In this document: one piece after another, positions 31,461 to 39,236 of the stretch
Numbering within the stretch: position 1 is the stretch's first letter
Layout of the letters: every line of letters begins with the position of its first letter
NCBI RefSeq assembly: GCF_918698095.1
Contig: NZ_CAKKLY010000028.1
Span: 1 to 64,000 of the forward strand
Reading direction: 5' to 3'
Length of the DNA: 64,000 nucleotides
Source of the DNA: Arthrobacter sp. Bi83
GTDB lineage: Bacteria > Actinomycetota > Actinomycetes > Actinomycetales > Micrococcaceae
Notes under the pieces: model-generated
Databases searched by the model: none
What the model saw: the letters and a program-made list of their open reading frames with translations, nothing else
What the model was told of the DNA's origin: nothing
Made by a program: the position numbers and the translations under genes

Positions 31461-34265
31461 CTACCTCACGGTCCCAACGTCGGCTGCGGCGGTCGCAACC
31501 TCGGTAACAGTCCCGGCTGCGCCGTCCACAGTTACGGTCTGACCGGTGCGCAGCCTGCTGGTGGCGTCCGGCACGCCCACGACGGCGGGGATGCCGTACT
31601 CCCGGGCGACAACCGCCCCGTGGGATATGACGCCGCCCATTTCCATCACCAGCGCACCAGCGGTCAGGAAGAGCGGCGTCCAACCCGGATCTGTGGAAGG
31701 CGCCACCAGGATTTCCCCGGGTTCGAGGCGCGCGCCCACAGGGTCCAGGATCACCCTGACCCGTCCAGTGGCCGTGCCTGTGGATGCGGGTGTCCCGACC
31801 ATTCCTCCGGGGGCCGCGGCCGCACCGGCGACCACGGCCGCGGCCGCAGCGGCGACCACGGCCTCGACGTCCGTGCCATCGGAGAGCAGGAGCCGGGGAA
31901 TTCTCCGGCGCCGCAGTTCAGCATCATAAATTCGACGGCGGTCGGTCACCATTCCCTTCAGATCGGCGCCGCGCAGGCCCACGCGGACCTCGTCGAAGCT
32001 GAGGAAGAAGACGTCGGCGGCGGCGGCGACGGCACCGGTCCTGGCCATCTCGGCGCCGACGGCGGTGAGCTGCCTGTGCATTTCACCGAGCACCGTGACG
32101 ACGTAGAACTTCGGAAGTTCGCGTAGCCCGCACAGCTGCCGTGACCGGTGCAGGCACAGCGCCACCAGACGGCCCCGCAGCTGGCTCCTTGTACGGGCCC
32201 GCTCAACGAGGCTGCGAATTCTCGCCTCCGCGTGATCGGACGCCCGCTGGAATTGCCGGTCCGGAGCCTGTTCCGGATCCTCCACCCGAAGGTAGTTGGA
32301 AATCATCCCGAGAAGATGGTCCGGCTTCTCGGCCCACCGGGGCATGCCCAAGTCGATCTCCGCCACGGCGCGGTGGCCATAACGTTCCAGGAATCCGCGC
32401 AGGCCGGCCTGCGCCACAGCGGGCAGCTCTCCTGCGGCGTAGCTGACGGCCAGTTCATCAGGCTGTTTGTCGAGGAATGCGCTGCGCGAGGCGGGGTCCC
32501 CGGCGATGGACACGGAAAAACGCCAGAGTTCAAGGTCCATTTCGGTGGTCACATTGTGGGGCAATCCGCGGAGGACTGCTTCCAGCTCGCGAGGTTCGGC
32601 AATTCCGCGCAGAAGCCAGCGGGCCAGGGCCAGCATCGTATAGCCCGTGGCGGGTCCCGGCAGTGTGGATCGGAAGAGGCCATCAACCGTCCGCGCCGCT
32701 GCATGCTCGGCGTGGTCGAGGCGCCGGAAGGCGGTAGCGGGCTCGCGCAGTGCCAGATCCTTCGCGAGGCGTTGTGCGAAGGTCCGTGCCCTGCGCAATT
32801 CTGCTTCCGGCCGGAGAACGGCTCGAATCAGGGCCGGAAGCAGCCACGTCACCAGGCCAGGGCTGGCAAAGGAACCGCCTCCGCGGGCCCCGTCCGCTGT
32901 GGCCGGCGCTTTCCTGAGCGGGTGCTTGATGACCCTGAATCTCGGGTCGTCCAGAAGTGCGGGGAGAACGGCTGCCGAGCGACCGTCCGCCAGGGGGAGC
33001 ATTCTCACCAGGGCCCGGCGGCCGGACTTGCTGCGCACTAAAGGGGTGAGGTCCATATACATGCGCAGGCCGGGGCTGACGTAGGTCCACGGCGATCTGC
33101 GGTCGCCCCACATGCCCAGCGCGGAAAGCCCCATTGGCGTGATGGGGCGGGTCAGCCCCTGGAGCAGGGAGCCGCACAGATAAACGCGGACGTCGGATGT
33201 TGGCTCGGATTCAACGCCGAACGGTTCCGCGGACGATGGATCGGGCAGGGGGTACAGCGTGGTGATCGGACGCGACTGGGTCAGCCAAATCATGCCGCCG
33301 GCGTCGATGACCCATTCGACGTCCTGGGGTTCGCCGAACAGCCGCTGGGCGTCGAGGCCCAGCGCGGTCAGAGCACGGACCTCGGCGTCGGCAAGGCTCG
33401 GCTGGCCACCGGCGTTGCCGGGCTCGAGGTCGGCAGTGGCCGCACCGACGCGTCCGCGGACAAGCTGCAGAATCCGCCCCGTCGCACTGTCCACGGTGAA
33501 ATGGTCCGGATTCACTGCCCCGGAGACCACCGCCTGGCCTGGTCCCGGGCTCGCATCGATGACGGTTTCACCGCGTGTGCCGGTTACCGGATTGGCGGTA
33601 AACAACACACCCGCAGTGGCGGCGTCGACGAAAAGCTGGACGACGACGGCGAGTCCTGTGTCACGATGGCTGATCCCGTTGGCCGAGCGGTAGGCAACCG
33701 CCCGGTCGGTCCACAGGGAGGCCCAGCATCGCCGGACGGCCTCGATCACAGCGTCGGCACCGACGACATCCAGGAACGAATCCTGTTGCCCGGCGAAGCT
33801 CGCGAAGGACAGGTCCTCCGCGGTGGCGGAGGAGCGAACCGCCACCGCCGGGGCGTGTTCGGCGCCGGGCGCGGCACCCAACGCTGCGTAGCCAGTGCGG
33901 AGGGCGGCTGCGACTTCCGGTGGGACCGGTGACGTCCCCACAAGCTCCCGCGCCCGCTGGGCAAGCTGGCGCTCGGCAGGCTGCGTCCGTTCAAGCTGGC
34001 GCTCGGCAATCGCTGCCTCGGCGTCGGTGGAGGCCGCCACGGGGCCGATCCCGTCAAGGCGAGCGGCCAGAGCGTCCAGCTCCCGTGGAACCGCCAGTGC
34101 GTAGGCCGAGGTGGTCAGGCAGAAACCTGGCGGCACGGGGAAACCCGCAGCGGCCAGCTTCCCGAGGTTGAGGGCCTTGCCGCCCACCCGGGAAAGTGGT
34201 GCCGAGCCGAGGCTGCCGAGCTCCAGCACGAGACTGTCCTGGTCGGCGTGCTGCGGGGAGGCCAT
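31461..34265 (-). CDS. Rifampin phosphotransferase-like PEP-utilising enzyme
   Basis: A 934-residue three-domain enzyme of the PEP synthase superfamily without the C-terminal PEP-binding barrel. The N-terminal ATP-grasp part begins LSRVGGKALNLGKLAAAGFPVPPGF and contains VRSSATAEDLSFASFAGQQD. The middle region (about residues 330-780) has blocks shared with rifampin phosphotransferases, such as RGFLERYGHRAVAEIDLGMP. The C-terminal swivelling domain has MGGVISHGAVVAREYGIPAVVG with the catalytic His. That domain order matches Rph, which phosphorylates rifamycins using ATP. The start at 34265 has the RBS GGGAG; upstream frame extension is spurious. Many family members have unknown substrates, so resistance is not certain. 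An ABM-like gene precedes it. Confidence 0.85.
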   Translation of the reverse strand: MASPQHADQDSLVLELGSLGSAPLSRVGGKALNLGKLAAAGFPVPPGFCLTTSAYALAVPRELDALAARLDGIGPVAASTDAEAAIAERQLERTQPAERQLAQRARELVGTSPVPPEVAAALRTGYAALGAAPGAEHAPAVAVRSSATAEDLSFASFAGQQDSFLDVVGADAVIEAVRRCWASLWTDRAVAYRSANGISHRDTGLAVVVQLFVDAATAGVLFTANPVTGTRGETVIDASPGPGQAVVSGAVNPDHFTVDSATGRILQLVRGRVGAATADLEPGNAGGQPSLADAEVRALTALGLDAQRLFGEPQDVEWVIDAGGMIWLTQSRPITTLYPLPDPSSAEPFGVESEPTSDVRVYLCGSLLQGLTRPITPMGLSALGMWGDRRSPWTYVSPGLRMYMDLTPLVRSKSGRRALVRMLPLADGRSAAVLPALLDDPRFRVIKHPLRKAPATADGARGGGSFASPGLVTWLLPALIRAVLRPEAELRRARTFAQRLAKDLALREPATAFRRLDHAEHAAARTVDGLFRSTLPGPATGYTMLALARWLLRGIAEPRELEAVLRGLPHNVTTEMDLELWRFSVSIAGDPASRSAFLDKQPDELAVSYAAGELPAVAQAGLRGFLERYGHRAVAEIDLGMPRWAEKPDHLLGMISNYLRVEDPEQAPDRQFQRASDHAEARIRSLVERARTRSQLRGRLVALCLHRSRQLCGLRELPKFYVVTVLGEMHRQLTAVGAEMARTGAVAAAADVFFLSFDEVRVGLRGADLKGMVTDRRRIYDAELRRRRIPRLLLSDGTDVEAVVAAAAAAVVAGAAAAPGGMVGTPASTGTATGRVRVILDPVGARLEPGEILVAPSTDPGWTPLFLTAGALVMEMGGVISHGAVVAREYGIPAVVGVPDATSRLRTGQTVTVDGAAGTVTEVATAAADVGTVR

Positions 34266-34296
34266 CTCCGGCTCCCGGTTTCGCGGATTTCGGCCG

Positions 34297-34614
34297 CTAG
34301 GGAGCGTCCGAAGCCTCGCCCGTGTCCTCCCACATGACGTCAAGGTTGCGGAAGACCGGTGGTCCGTCACACAGCGCCGCCATCTTCGCGGCGAAGTCGG
34401 ACGTTTCCGGCCGGTTGGAGTTTTCCATGGCCGACTCGTAGGAATCGAATTCGACGATGGTGAAGTAGGTCCCCGGCCGGTCGCGGTCCGCGGTGGCCAC
34501 GATGCGACGGAACGTGGGGTCAGTCGCTCCCTCGGTCCTTGACGGACGGCCCAATTCTTCAATCTCCTTGATGCGGGAACTTTGGAATTCGATGATCTGC
34601 ACAAACCCGGCCAT
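34297..34614 (-). CDS. ABM-fold (dimeric alpha-beta barrel) small protein
   Basis: A 105-residue protein with the layout of antibiotic-biosynthesis-monooxygenase/EthD-like ferredoxin folds: strand (AGFVQIIEFQS), helix (RIKEIEELGRPSR), strand (RRIVATADRDRPGTYFTIVEFDS), helix (SYESAMENSNRPETSDFAAKMAAL) and a final strand (PVFRNLDVMWED). The RBS is AAGGAG. It lies 31 bases upstream of the phosphotransferase-like gene in the same direction, so a shared pathway is possible. No catalytic residues can be named. Confidence 0.78.
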   Translation of the reverse strand: MAGFVQIIEFQSSRIKEIEELGRPSRTEGATDPTFRRIVATADRDRPGTYFTIVEFDSYESAMENSNRPETSDFAAKMAALCDGPPVFRNLDVMWEDTGEASDAP

Positions 34615-35827: not shown

Positions 35828-36454
35828 CTAGCGCATGCCCTCCCGGCGGATGGCGGTGGCGATGGCTGCTGCCCGCGTTTCCACTCCGAGCTTGGCGTAA
35901 ATGTGGGCCAGGTGGGTTTTGACCGTGGCCTCGGAGATGAAGAGCCGCTGGCCGAGTTCGCGGTTGCTAAGCCCCTCGGTGAGGAGGCTCAGCAGCTCGG
36001 CTTCGCGCGGGGTCAGGACCTCGCCGGGATTGCGCAGCTGCTGGAACAGCCGGGAGGCCACCGGGGCGCTCATCACGCTCCTGCCCTGCACGGCACCCCG
36101 GATGGCGGCGAAAATCTCCTCCGGTGCGGCGTCCTTGAGCAGGTAGCCCATGGCGCCGGCGTCCACCGCGCGGACGATGTCGGCGTCGGAATCGTATGTG
36201 GTGAACACGAGCACCGCCTGCCGCCTATTGCATTCGCGGATCCTCCGGATGGCTTCGATGCCGTCCATGCCGGCGCCCATGGCCAGGTCCATGACCACTA
36301 CAGCAGGGGAATGTTCCTCTACCTTCGCCAAGGCTTCTTCGCCTGATGCGGCCTCGGCCACGACGTCGATGTCCGGCTGGGTTCCCAGCAGCGCCTTGAG
36401 CCCGCTCCGGACCACGAGGTGATCGTCAGCGAGGAGGACGGTGATGGCGCTCAT
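35828..36454 (-). CDS. NarL/LuxR-type response regulator (SenR-like)
   Basis: A 208-residue two-component regulator. The receiver domain has acidic pocket DDH, phosphoacceptor Asp56 (VVMDLAMG), Thr/Ser switch (VFTTYDSD) and Lys (YLLKDAAPEE). The C-terminal LuxR HTH is LTPREAELLSLLTEGLSNRELGQRLFISEATVKTHLAHIYAKLGV. The start overlaps the kinase stop by 4 bases. The kinase-regulator pair is divergent from an HbpS-like haem-binding protein gene, the same arrangement as the Streptomyces SenS-SenR-HbpS redox system, so SenR homology is proposed. Confidence 0.93.
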   Translation of the reverse strand: MSAITVLLADDHLVVRSGLKALLGTQPDIDVVAEAASGEEALAKVEEHSPAVVVMDLAMGAGMDGIEAIRRIRECNRRQAVLVFTTYDSDADIVRAVDAGAMGYLLKDAAPEEIFAAIRGAVQGRSVMSAPVASRLFQQLRNPGEVLTPREAELLSLLTEGLSNRELGQRLFISEATVKTHLAHIYAKLGVETRAAAIATAIRREGMR

Positions 36455-37647
36455 GCGTCCTCCCTGGCAGGCAGTTGCGCGGCCACGATGGTCCCTTCCC
36501 CGGGGGTGCTTTCCACCGAGAATACGCCGCCCAGCTGTTCCACCCGCTGCCGCATGGCCCGCAGCCCGTAGCCTCCGGCGTCCGATGGCGGTGCTGCCGC
36601 CGCCGGATCAAAGCCGCCGCCGTCGTCGTAAATGTCCAGGGTGACGGCCTCCGGAAGGAAGCCGAGCGTCAGCGTCGCGTTCGCTGCGGACGCGTGGAGC
36701 TGGATATTGGCTGCCGCGCTCTGAACCACCCTCAGGAGTGTGTGGCGGACGTCCGCGGGAACGGGCCGCCGCTCGCCGGTGACCAGCAGCCGCGCCCCGG
36801 GGACATACTGCGAGGCGGCCTGCAGCAGGGCCTCGGGCAGGGGAGAGGCGTCCAGTCCGGGGGAAGCGAGCTCGTGGACGAGGCTCCGCGTTTCTGACAG
36901 GTTCCGGCGGAGCAGCCCGCTGGCCTGGCTGAGGTCCTGCCGGGACGACGGGGCAGGCCAGGCGCGGTTCGCCGCTTCCAGGAGCAGCAGGCTGCTGGCC
37001 AGGCCCTGCGTGACGGTGTCGTGGATTTCGCGGGACACACGCTCACGCTCGGCAATGGTGCCGGCCCGGCGCTCGCTGGCGGCCAGCTGTCCCTGGGCGA
37101 GCGACACCTCAGCGTGCAGGCGGCGCTGCTCCGCGGCGTCGTGCTCGATGCGGTCGTAGATCAGCGTCAGCATGACGCCGACGGCAAGCGGACCAAGCAG
37201 CATGGCGAGGTCGGTGCCGTCACTGAGCCGGAACAGCCCGACGGCGGTGGCGGCGGCCGTCGCGCCCGCTGCGATGTAGGCCACCGCCCCCCGGAATGCC
37301 GTGCGGCAGAGGAAGAACAGCGCAAACGAACACCACGCGAAGCTGGGCGCGGCAACCACCAAGACCGCCCACACGGCGACGAGGATGAACATCCAGACGG
37401 CCCAGGGACGCCCGCGCTGGGCAAGCACGGCGATGACGGCGTAGAGAACGCAGGCGGCGGCGGCCAGGCCGGGGACCATGAGGTTGTCAGCAGGGCTGTG
37501 CCGCATCACGTAACGCACCACCGACGCCACCAGCAGCACCGCGAAACCCAGGTGGACCGCGGCGTCAATCCTGCCCAGAGGGCCTGATGCCTGGGCTGTC
37601 CGGCCGGGCAGGGTTTCCTGGGGGAGTGCTGGGGCTGAGGAAGGCAT
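36451..37647 (-). CDS. Sensor histidine kinase, HisKA_3 type (SenS-like)
   Basis: A 398-residue membrane kinase. About five membrane helices occupy residues 30-170, then a coiled linker (HDAAEQRRLHAEVSLAQGQLAASERRAG). The dimerisation/phosphorylation helix has REIHDTVTQGLASSLLLLE with His209, and the ATPase domain contains RHTLLRVVQSAAANIQLHASA (N-box, unusual Ser-Ala-Ala-Asn), YDDGGGFDP and GGYGLRAMRQRVEQLGG. The start at 37647 is chosen because the upstream extension is not protein-like. A five-helix sensor next to HbpS matches SenS, which is regulated by the extracellular haem-binding protein. Confidence 0.9.
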   Translation of the reverse strand: MPSSAPALPQETLPGRTAQASGPLGRIDAAVHLGFAVLLVASVVRYVMRHSPADNLMVPGLAAAACVLYAVIAVLAQRGRPWAVWMFILVAVWAVLVVAAPSFAWCSFALFFLCRTAFRGAVAYIAAGATAAATAVGLFRLSDGTDLAMLLGPLAVGVMLTLIYDRIEHDAAEQRRLHAEVSLAQGQLAASERRAGTIAERERVSREIHDTVTQGLASSLLLLEAANRAWPAPSSRQDLSQASGLLRRNLSETRSLVHELASPGLDASPLPEALLQAASQYVPGARLLVTGERRPVPADVRHTLLRVVQSAAANIQLHASAANATLTLGFLPEAVTLDIYDDGGGFDPAAAAPPSDAGGYGLRAMRQRVEQLGGVFSVESTPGEGTIVAAQLPAREDA

Positions 37648-37863
37648 GGCGTCCGGTTCCGGTGGAGGGAGTGCTATCCACCATGCTATTGCCCGCGCCG
37701 TTGCTCGTCCCTCAGCCTTTTGGCTGATCCTGCTGGCTGTTAGGGGGAGCACGGTGCCGACGAAGGCCCGATGTGCGCGTTCGGAGCAGGCGGCACGATG
37801 GAAATGTACCCGATTCCGCTACCGGATTTCAGCTGAGTCTCAGCGCTAAAAAGGAGAACTACC
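37648..37863. other. Divergent promoter region of kinase and HbpS-like genes
   Basis: The region of 216 bases presumably contains the promoters for both divergent units and the SenR-type target site. I could not pick out a convincing inverted repeat. The HbpS-like gene has a strong RBS (AAAAAGGAGAA) at its end. Confidence 0.4.
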
Positions 37864-38457
37864 GTGAAAAAGTCCACCAAGGTTTTTGCCGCCGCCGCGG
37901 CCGGAGCGCTTGTCCTGACGGCCGGTGCGACCGCCGCCGCCAACTCCGGAATCGGTTCCTCGGCGCGGGCGGCTGAGCCGGCTTCGGTGTCCGCCGCCGC
38001 ACGCGCTGCCGTGCCTGCCGCGGACGTCCGGCCAGTGCCAGCTAACGTCGTGGCGCAGAGCCGGATCACCGTCGGCGCCTCGGCCAAGGCGGTGGGCGCG
38101 GCGCTTGCCAAGTGCCAGGCGGACAAGCTGCCCTTCGTCACGGTAGCGCTGGTCGACCGGTTTGGCGCTGTGCAGGCAATCCTCCGGGGCGACAACGCGG
38201 CTGAGCACACCATCGAATCGGCCAAGCGGAAGGCCTATACCGCTGCCGCTTTTGGTGCCCCCACGAGCGAGCTGGCGAAGCGCATCACGGGCAACGGCCC
38301 CAGCATCGCCGACCTTCCCGGCACGCTGTTCCTGCCAGGCGGAGTGCCGCTCAAGGTCAACGGCGTGTCCGTGGCCGGCATCGGCGTGGGCGGCGCCCCG
38401 GAAGGCAAGCTCGACGAAGCCTGCGCGGCAGCGGGTGCCGATGCCATCGCCGGATAG
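37864..38457 (+). CDS. Secreted HbpS/GlcG-like haem-binding protein
   Basis: A 197-residue exported protein. A signal peptide (MKKSTKVFAAAAAGALVLTAGATAAA) precedes an Ala-rich linker and a GlcG/HbpS domain (PF03928) from about residue 65: ITVGASAKAVGAALAKCQAD, FVTVALVDRFGAVQAILRGDNAAEHTIESAKRKAYTAAAFG in two parts, FLPGGVPLKVNGVSVAGIGVGGAPEGKLDEACAAAGADAI. In Streptomyces HbpS binds haem, senses oxidative stress and acts on the kinase SenS. Here a kinase-regulator pair is divergent from it, which supports the same function. A GTG start with a strong RBS. A single Cys lies in the first helix and one in the last. Confidence 0.9.
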   Translation: MKKSTKVFAAAAAGALVLTAGATAAANSGIGSSARAAEPASVSAAARAAVPAADVRPVPANVVAQSRITVGASAKAVGAALAKCQADKLPFVTVALVDRFGAVQAILRGDNAAEHTIESAKRKAYTAAAFGAPTSELAKRITGNGPSIADLPGTLFLPGGVPLKVNGVSVAGIGVGGAPEGKLDEACAAAGADAIAG

Positions 38458-38471
38458 GTTCAGTTCATGAG

Positions 38472-39236
38472 GTGGTTCAAGGCCGCTGGACGGCGCCGGG
38501 ACGGATGTCGGTTGTGAGCGCACTAGCGGCCGTTACCGTGGCAGCAGCAGTGGCAGGATGCAGCGCCGTGGGCGCAGTAGGCACGGCGTCAGACAGCGCT
38601 GCCACCGCCGAACCCAGTGCGCCATCGGCGGCCACCTCGAGTCCGGCCACGCCGCGCCTGGGAACGCCAGGCCCGGCAAAGTCGCAGACTTCCACGCCGA
38701 CAGGGGCCACGGCTTCGCGCCCGGCGCCGCCCCGGGAGGCCCAGGCGGAGCTCGACCGGCGGCTGATCCTTGCAGCCATAGCCTACAATGCGCCGCTGGT
38801 CAAGCAGCTGATCCGGGCCGGCGGTAACGTCAACGCCAAGGACGCGATCCAGGATTCGGCGTTCCTCTACGCCGGAGCTGAAGGGTTCAACGACGTGCTT
38901 CGGCTGACCCTGGCCAACGGTGCGGATGTGTCCAGTACCAACCGCTACGGCGGGACTGCACTCATACCGGCCAGCGAACACGGCCATGTGGACACGGTCC
39001 GGATCCTTATCGCCGCGGGAGTTCCCGTAAACCACGTGAACAACCTCGGCTGGACTGCCATGCAGGAGGCCGTCCTGCTCAACAATGGCGGTCCTAGGCA
39101 ACAGGAAGTGGTCCGGCTGCTCCTGGCGGCCGGCGCCGACCCCTCCATCCGTGACCCCCAGGGCCGGACGGCTTTGGACAATGCGGAGCGCCTGGGCTTT
39201 GCCGACATTGCGGCCCTGATCCGGGGCCGGAGCTAG
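38472..39236 (+). CDS. Ankyrin-repeat lipoprotein
   Basis: A 254-residue exported lipoprotein. The signal peptide has a lipobox (VAGC, Cys about residue 30), and a Ser/Pro/Thr-rich linker leads to four to five ankyrin repeats from about residue 95 (APLVKQLIRAGGNVNAKDAIQ, GFNDVLRLTLANGADVSSTN, GHVDTVRILIAAGVPVNHVN, EVVRLLLAAGADPSIRDPQG). The GTG at 38472 gives a basic N-terminus suitable for export; an ATG 11 codons downstream is the alternative. It follows the HbpS-like gene by 14 bases. Periplasmic ankyrin proteins next to catalases or haem proteins (AnkB of Pseudomonas) protect against peroxide, which is a plausible role here. Confidence 0.87.
   Translation: MVQGRWTAPGRMSVVSALAAVTVAAAVAGCSAVGAVGTASDSAATAEPSAPSAATSSPATPRLGTPGPAKSQTSTPTGATASRPAPPREAQAELDRRLILAAIAYNAPLVKQLIRAGGNVNAKDAIQDSAFLYAGAEGFNDVLRLTLANGADVSSTNRYGGTALIPASEHGHVDTVRILIAAGVPVNHVNNLGWTAMQEAVLLNNGGPRQQEVVRLLLAAGADPSIRDPQGRTALDNAERLGFADIAALIRGRS

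Follow-up and report, generated by a model that had tools for sequence, protein, structure and literature searches.

An HbpS-SenS-SenR-type locus in Arthrobacter sp. Bi83 with replaced functional residues and two invariant cysteines in its HbpS-like protein

HbpS-SenS-SenR serves as a model of kinase sensing by way of a distinct outer protein. A locus of this kind in Arthrobacter sp. Bi83 (assembly GCF_918698095.1, contig NZ_CAKKLY010000028.1, positions 1 to 64,000; the window denotes this whole stretch of 64,000 nucleotides) raises the question of what such a system senses when several haem- and iron-related residues of its outer protein are replaced. The locus is a member of the HbpS-SenS-SenR family by descent and layout, but several residues that are functional in the type member have been replaced in it. 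As the initial annotation had proposed, a NarL-type kinase-regulator pair is divergent from an HbpS-like protein with a signal peptide (Table 1), and both the open reading frames (ORFs) and the Pfam matches agree (Response_reg 7e-27 and GerE 8e-18 in the regulator, HisKA_3 2e-13 and HATPase_c 2e-9 in the kinase, HbpS-like PF03928 1e-26 in the secreted protein). We regard it as fairly probable that this is a Micrococcaceae version of the system, with an outer HbpS sensor and probably shifted chemistry.

Descent and layout of the locus

Alignment with HbpS, the check suggested by the initial annotation, places Streptomyces reticuli HbpS first by both sequence and fold. It is the top match of the HbpS-like protein in the PDB by sequence (3fpv, E 6e-30), and the predicted model (predicted local distance difference test, pLDDT, of 83.9; predicted template modelling score, pTM, of 0.70) has 3fpw (E 5e-17) and 3fpv (E 1e-16) as its top Foldseek matches, with template modelling (TM) scores by target of 0.94 and 0.95 and root mean square deviations of 1.3 and 1.2 Å, respectively.

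We gathered 80 named Arthrobacter-group loci through their HbpS-like proteins, using six peptide patterns. Divergent SenS and SenR homologues, some of them partial matches, lie on the expected side of hbpS in 77 of these loci, and the remaining three (L018, L051 and L064) have a contig end on the SenS/SenR side. Thus, the arrangement is not a matter of chance. At one locus (L021), senS is located ∼2 kb away from hbpS rather than adjoining it, with what looks like an insertion between them. NarL-type pairs are common and the phylogeny of the kinase is undecided (see below), so that such a pair might merely adjoin a functionally unrelated secreted HbpS-like gene; however, the gene order kept here and in Streptomyces-type loci, the best hits and the operator half-sites common to the intergenic regions make this explanation extremely improbable.

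Eleven Streptomyces-like genomes were searched with the window SenS and SenR. The top match of each is the pair beside hbpS in all seven genomes that bear HbpS, the other four having no HbpS orthologue. In the reverse direction, where eight Arthrobacter-group genomes were searched with a Streptomyces-type SenS, the kinase beside hbpS is the top match in seven. The SenS and SenR alignments, from which incomplete frames were dropped, retained 74 and 76 of the 80 named loci, respectively. In the regulator tree (long rows L194 and L198 dropped), the 25 SenR rows form one clade with support of 95/87. Two kinase trees were built from 17 of the named loci, the window, seven Streptomyces-like kinases and 16 or 10 other kinases, the second without the long rows L190, L191, L194, L195, L196 and L198. 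They leave the phylogeny undecided and were set aside as proof of orthology, which rests on the other evidence.

Several of these comparisons weigh against orthology. A paralogous kinase scores slightly above the hbpS-adjacent one in the reverse search of one genome (G004), and the tree program warns that the two SenR groups join by long branches, a joining that may be false. The first kinase tree mixed three other kinases into the SenS group, and the second places Streptomyces-type SenS with paralogous kinases (92/79) instead of with that of the window; a single SenS clade is not rejected in the second tree (p value of the approximately unbiased test, p-AU, 0.172). We accept orthology because of the conserved gene order, the top matches in both search directions, the operator described below and, subject to the long-branch warning, the regulator tree, and conclude that the locus is very probably an orthologous HbpS-SenS-SenR system. 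The homology claimed by the initial annotation is thus upheld by sequence, fold, gene order, best hits and shared operator half-sites.

An HbpS orthologue (E 1.2e-70 or better) is present in 43 of the 61 genomes of the window's genus, its own included, among 99 genomes searched. Of 347 genomes of the order, eight have this HbpS type in profile searches (E up to 1e-20), every one in the window's family; in the class, 28 of 394 genomes have it, of which three belong to the window's genus and the others nearly all to one large-genome Streptomyces-like family. Arthrobacter aurescens has been listed among the actinobacteria in which hbpS, senS and senR are clustered in the same relative orientation (PMC4991794), so the presence of the system in Arthrobacter is already published and is not new. 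Rhodococcus, Nocardia and Leifsonia are also named there as carriers; no clear case in these genera was seen in the sampled genomes at E 1e-20, maybe because of the sampling or the cut-off. The functional work that we found was all done in Streptomyces.

A hydropathy scan of SenS gives about five hydrophobic stretches, the third of which is 37 residues long, while the predicted model contains six N-terminal helices (residues 23–49, 57–77, 83–99, 101–117, 121–141 and 148 onward) joined by loops of a few residues (mean pLDDT 82.5, pTM only 0.45). Judged by this model, the description of a five-helix sensor is likely one helix short. The membrane part is common to the Arthrobacter and Streptomyces groups, including the motif APSFAW. 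As SenS is almost without an outer part, HbpS is the likely reader of the signal, which it would relay by contact.

The N-terminus of the HbpS-like protein, which begins with MKKSTK, lacks a twin arginine and has pLDDT values below 50 at residues 6–29, suggests that the protein is probably secreted. A crude signal start motif fits 67 of 81 such proteins and leaves 14 unfitted; a twin arginine occurs in none of the starts inspected. In the proposed mechanism, the HbpS-like protein would be secreted and serve SenS, the membrane kinase, as an accessory sensor on the outside, reading the signal and passing it on by contact. SenS would then phosphorylate SenR. By binding TCAGCC-TTTT-GGCTGA, the inverted repeat that lies between the two gene sets, SenR would control its own divergent locus, with hbpS and an ankyrin lipoprotein gene on one side and senS-senR on the opposite side.

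Residues of the HbpS-like protein and the possible signal

Residues S26 to E144 are given here in S. reticuli HbpS numbering, and the first set comprises 81 proteins (the 80 named loci and the window's genome). Published work on S. reticuli (PMC3754957) links S26 and H28 to the formation of octamers and to contact with SenS, Y77 to dityrosine, T113 to haem and E78/E81, D141/E144, K83 and D143 to iron; K108 is linked there to the activation of SenS by haem. S26, H28 and Y77 are replaced by Q, R and I, respectively, in all 81 proteins, and K108 by A in 78 and by D in three. T113, K83 and D143 are retained throughout. In the iron motifs E78xxE81 and D141xxE144, the first and last residues (E78 and E144) are kept in 80 of the 81, and E81 and D141 in none, position 81 being K, Q or R.

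Since two of the six peptide patterns behind the first set contain the cysteines discussed below, a second set of 35 loci was added from whole-protein or profile searches (29 of the 42 other orthologues and six matches of the order profile); 21 of the 35 repeat a sequence of the first set and 14 are new. This set agrees with the first, with single exceptions in which no S. reticuli residue is restored: position 26 is Q or T and position 28 is R in 35/35, all of which keep T113. Among 23 Streptomyces-type proteins, T113 is present in all, H28, K108 and E78 in 22 each, Y77 in 20 and S26 in 17.

These replacements bear on the claim that the secreted protein is a haem sensor of the S. reticuli style, which is not supported as stated, even though T113 is kept. 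It could still be argued that the system works as in S. reticuli, with haem and iron on HbpS switching SenS on, haem bound chiefly through T113 and the remaining differences of no consequence. The five retained residues and a fold that is the same as that of HbpS in the Foldseek comparison favor such a view, and some of the counts speak against a shift in chemistry: among the 23 Streptomyces-type proteins, position 81 is E in only 13 and position 141 is D in only 17, one (L249) has V26 and R28, and another (L176) has A108. This variation indicates that some of the sites are loose even there. However, arginine replaces H28 in every protein of our set, yet H28A rendered S. reticuli HbpS monomeric, and K108 is likewise replaced, yet K108A was unable to mediate haem-based SenS activation (PMC3754957); Y77 and E81 are also substituted. 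The output appears to differ as well. Peroxidase family PF00141, which covers KatG/CpeB, has no match in the window's draft genome (121 contigs, 100% complete by estimate), and the S. reticuli target cpeB is therefore unlikely to be the target here. We consider haem sensing of the S. reticuli kind rather unlikely. The sensing chemistry has probably shifted from that type, and the architecture likely works like that of HbpS-SenS-SenR.

The HbpS-like protein of the window contains exactly two cysteines, C84 and C187. Both are present in 81/81 proteins of the first set and 35/35 of the second, and all 90 distinct sequences in the union of the two sets have at least two cysteines. Both are absent from all 23 Streptomyces-type rows, from S. 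reticuli HbpS and from one further locus (L235). A divergent Micrococcaceae relative (G790; L234/L207), 55% identical, keeps both. The HbpS of this relative is itself lipoprotein-like (LGVTAC lipobox), and the gene after its hbpS is no ankyrin gene; it is related to the one found downstream of the ankyrin gene in L173.

In the predicted model, helix 1 carries C84 close to its end, and C187 is located early in the final helix; the helix ends that bear them may be close together in the HbpS fold. As the iron, dityrosine and haem-activation residues are mostly replaced, one haem residue is kept and the two cysteines are invariant, a thiol-disulfide change is a possible switch. We lean slightly towards redox as the signal; a disulfide between C84 and C187 as the switch itself is put forward tentatively.

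The ligand could also be a different small molecule (an aldehyde, for example, or a breakdown product of aromatic compounds), which the HbpS-like protein would sense and hand on to SenS. EfgA, of the same family, binds formaldehyde, and a K57-D121-S114 pocket has been proposed for it (PMC8153426). Our family alignment of 39 rows has K123 and D184 without exception, at a similar spacing, and these two may be equivalent to K57 and D121. An alcohol dehydrogenase gene (Pfam) and thiolase and CoA-transferase genes (read by eye) are found nearby. However, residues that are invariant across a family say little about the ligand, the closest characterized relative is a redox/haem protein, and the neighboring metabolic genes were considered at the window locus alone. 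We therefore regard this possibility as improbable, and retain a shifted, perhaps redox-based, chemistry as the favored reading.

The intergenic repeat and the ankyrin lipoprotein

The perfect inverted repeat TCAGCC-TTTT-GGCTGA was defined on the window and 30 of the 77 named loci whose intergenic region was compared; across these 77 regions, it is matched at 13 or more of its 16 bases in 72, compared to 0 of 385 letter shuffles. Streptomyces-type regions have the same half-sites, TCAnCC/GGnTGA, around GATC: 22 of 23 regions match them at 9 or more of 10 bases, compared to 10 of 920 two-base-block shuffles (this count leaves out L233 and L234, which are Micrococcaceae, and L235 and L252, which have no SenS hit). 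The strict pattern TCAnCCnTTTGGnTGA occurs at 53 sites in 99 genomes, compared to one match of the reversed pattern. Twenty-six of these sites lie within 350 base pairs upstream of hbpS, at least 18 upstream of paralogous kinases (among the kinases listed) and the other nine elsewhere, where some may precede further kinases. An exact copy is present in 26 of the 43 HbpS-bearing genomes, and the only one in the window's genome is that beside hbpS.

Among 16 loci of other kinases, three (L184, L192 and L193) have a perfect TCAACC-N4-GGTTGA upstream and two (L185 and L189) a near one; no convincing upstream repeat was found in the other 11. All five contain paralogous kinase-regulator pairs with kinases ∼32–39% identical, and may be sister systems with a different sensor. 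L184, L185 and L189 adjoin genes that, read by eye, resemble ATP-binding cassette transporter genes.

The recurrence of the half-sites in Streptomyces-type loci and before paralogous kinases argues that the repeat is probably the SenR operator. Some points tell against this assignment. The repeat scores at chance level in L025, 17 of the 43 HbpS-bearing genomes are without an exact strict copy, and its presence before paralogous kinases also means that it marks a regulator subfamily. Furthermore, it is unlike the published SenR site III, CCGGGCCGCGTCCCGT (PMC4991794), in a comparison that covers site III alone, and the published consensus was set aside as the operator here because of this dissimilarity. 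On balance, we consider TCAGCC-TTTT-GGCTGA a likely SenR operator, through which SenR would control its own locus. A wider regulon was also considered and rejected: with up to two mismatches allowed (25 genomes scanned), the window's genome has six matches against one for the control, and five of the six carry two mismatches. Searches near the locus for sigma-70 promoters and terminators gave nothing above chance.

Downstream of hbpS, after a gap of between 14 and 47 bases, according to which start codon is used, is a gene for an ankyrin-repeat lipoprotein. Among the named loci, 70 of 80 have such a gene after hbpS, as do 25 of 29 in the second set, which overlaps the first; a lipobox behind a hydrophobic stretch is present in 64 of 71 ankyrin proteins, that of the window included. 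A part for this protein in the system is disfavored by the 10 named loci that show no ankyrin gene (one of which, L012, is at a contig end) and by its absence from 20 of 23 Streptomyces-type loci. An ankyrin lipoprotein gene also directly follows a C-terminal HbpS-like fragment in a distant actinobacterium (G419; L179, 5668-6721), where the 11 kb searched contain no SenS hit. We found no publication linking ankyrin with HbpS, as judged by titles and abstract openings.

Taken together, these features could be read as a haem/iron outer sensor that became a thiol-disulfide sensor, in which C84 and C187 would respond to the outside redox state, the ankyrin lipoprotein, as a fourth component, would tether HbpS to the membrane and SenR would act mainly on its own locus through half-sites shared by Arthrobacter and Streptomyces. 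As a whole, this combination is doubtful; the thiol-based switch and the ankyrin partner are testable ideas, not results.

The features of the locus are collected in Table 1. The regulator and kinase ORFs overlap by four bases. The open frame of the kinase extends farther upstream than 37647, so the start given for it is approximate, and the longest version of the ankyrin frame opens at a GTG (38472). Elsewhere in the window, a 105-residue ORF (34297-34614) overlaps the 5′ end of a long frame (31461-34604) and has no Pfam match up to E 1. A second PF03928 protein is encoded in the same genome (G000:C26:17744-18124; L002, L180), with E 9e-25 to the family. It is near genes that by eye resemble transporter and RidA genes, and has no BLAST hit to the window HbpS at 1e-5.

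Table 1. Positions of the locus features in the window
Feature	Positions	Strand	Basis or remark
SenR-like NarL/LuxR-type response regulator, 208 residues	35828-36454	-	ORF, Pfam, best hits, SenR tree
SenS-like HisKA_3 sensor histidine kinase, 398 residues	36451-~37647	-	start codon inferred
Perfect inverted repeat TCAGCC-TTTT-GGCTGA, predicted SenR operator	37712-37727		216-bp divergent hbpS/senS intergenic region
HbpS-like protein (PF03928), 197 residues, probably secreted	37864-38457	+	
Probable Sec-type signal peptide, with the beginning of a low-confidence linker, in the HbpS-like protein	37864-37980	+	end approximate; translation, pLDDT
Cys84 codon, near the end of helix 1 (residues 70-86)	38113-38115	+	
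Cys187 codon, C-terminal helix (residues 181-194)	38422-38424	+	
Ankyrin-repeat lipoprotein, lipobox AVAGC, just downstream of hbpS	38505-39236	+	ATG start inferred

Comparison with known systems

This natural branch, without several of the haem/iron residues, with the gene order kept and with two invariant cysteines, offers a ready test of what sensing needs. Regulation by SenR can be tested directly on the candidate operator, and the published SenR consensus would be revised if the site is bound. The ankyrin lipoprotein is a new candidate part of HbpS-SenS-SenR.

The closest known system is HbpS-SenS-SenR of S. reticuli and S. coelicolor, in which, as in the window, a PF03928 protein is divergent from a HisKA_3 kinase and a NarL-type regulator, as published for S. 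reticuli and as found here in Streptomyces-like loci. The kinases of both have about five hydrophobic stretches each by the scan and share APSFAW. The window group differs in the replacement of S26, H28, Y77, E81, K108 and D141, in its two invariant cysteines, in the ankyrin lipoprotein gene downstream, which only 3 of the 23 Streptomyces-type loci have (G202, G1071 and G1009), and in a signal peptide without a twin arginine; the window's genome also differs from S. reticuli in that no KatG/CpeB-type peroxidase was found in it.

Within the group, the locus of Arthrobacter (Paenarthrobacter) aurescens TC1 (L029) belongs to the same family and has the same gene order as the window, ankyrin gene included, with identities of 90% for HbpS (residues 54–188), 66% for SenS, 84% for SenR and 78% for the ankyrin protein. 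For the A. aurescens cluster, the text of PMC4991794 gives the gene order, and the portion of that article consulted yielded no functional test.

Among the DUF336/GlcG relatives, EfgA (a formaldehyde sensor), PduOC (haem, bis-His) and NahX have the same fold, their structural matches showing 24–32% identity; EfgA is a cytoplasmic protein, and PduO resides in the pdu microcompartment (PMC8153426).

An association between ankyrin repeats and oxidative stress is known from AnkB-KatB of Pseudomonas aeruginosa, where an exported ankyrin-repeat protein is linked to an oxidative-stress gene. In contrast, no catalase adjoins the ankyrin gene of the window, the product of which is a lipoprotein encoded beside hbpS.

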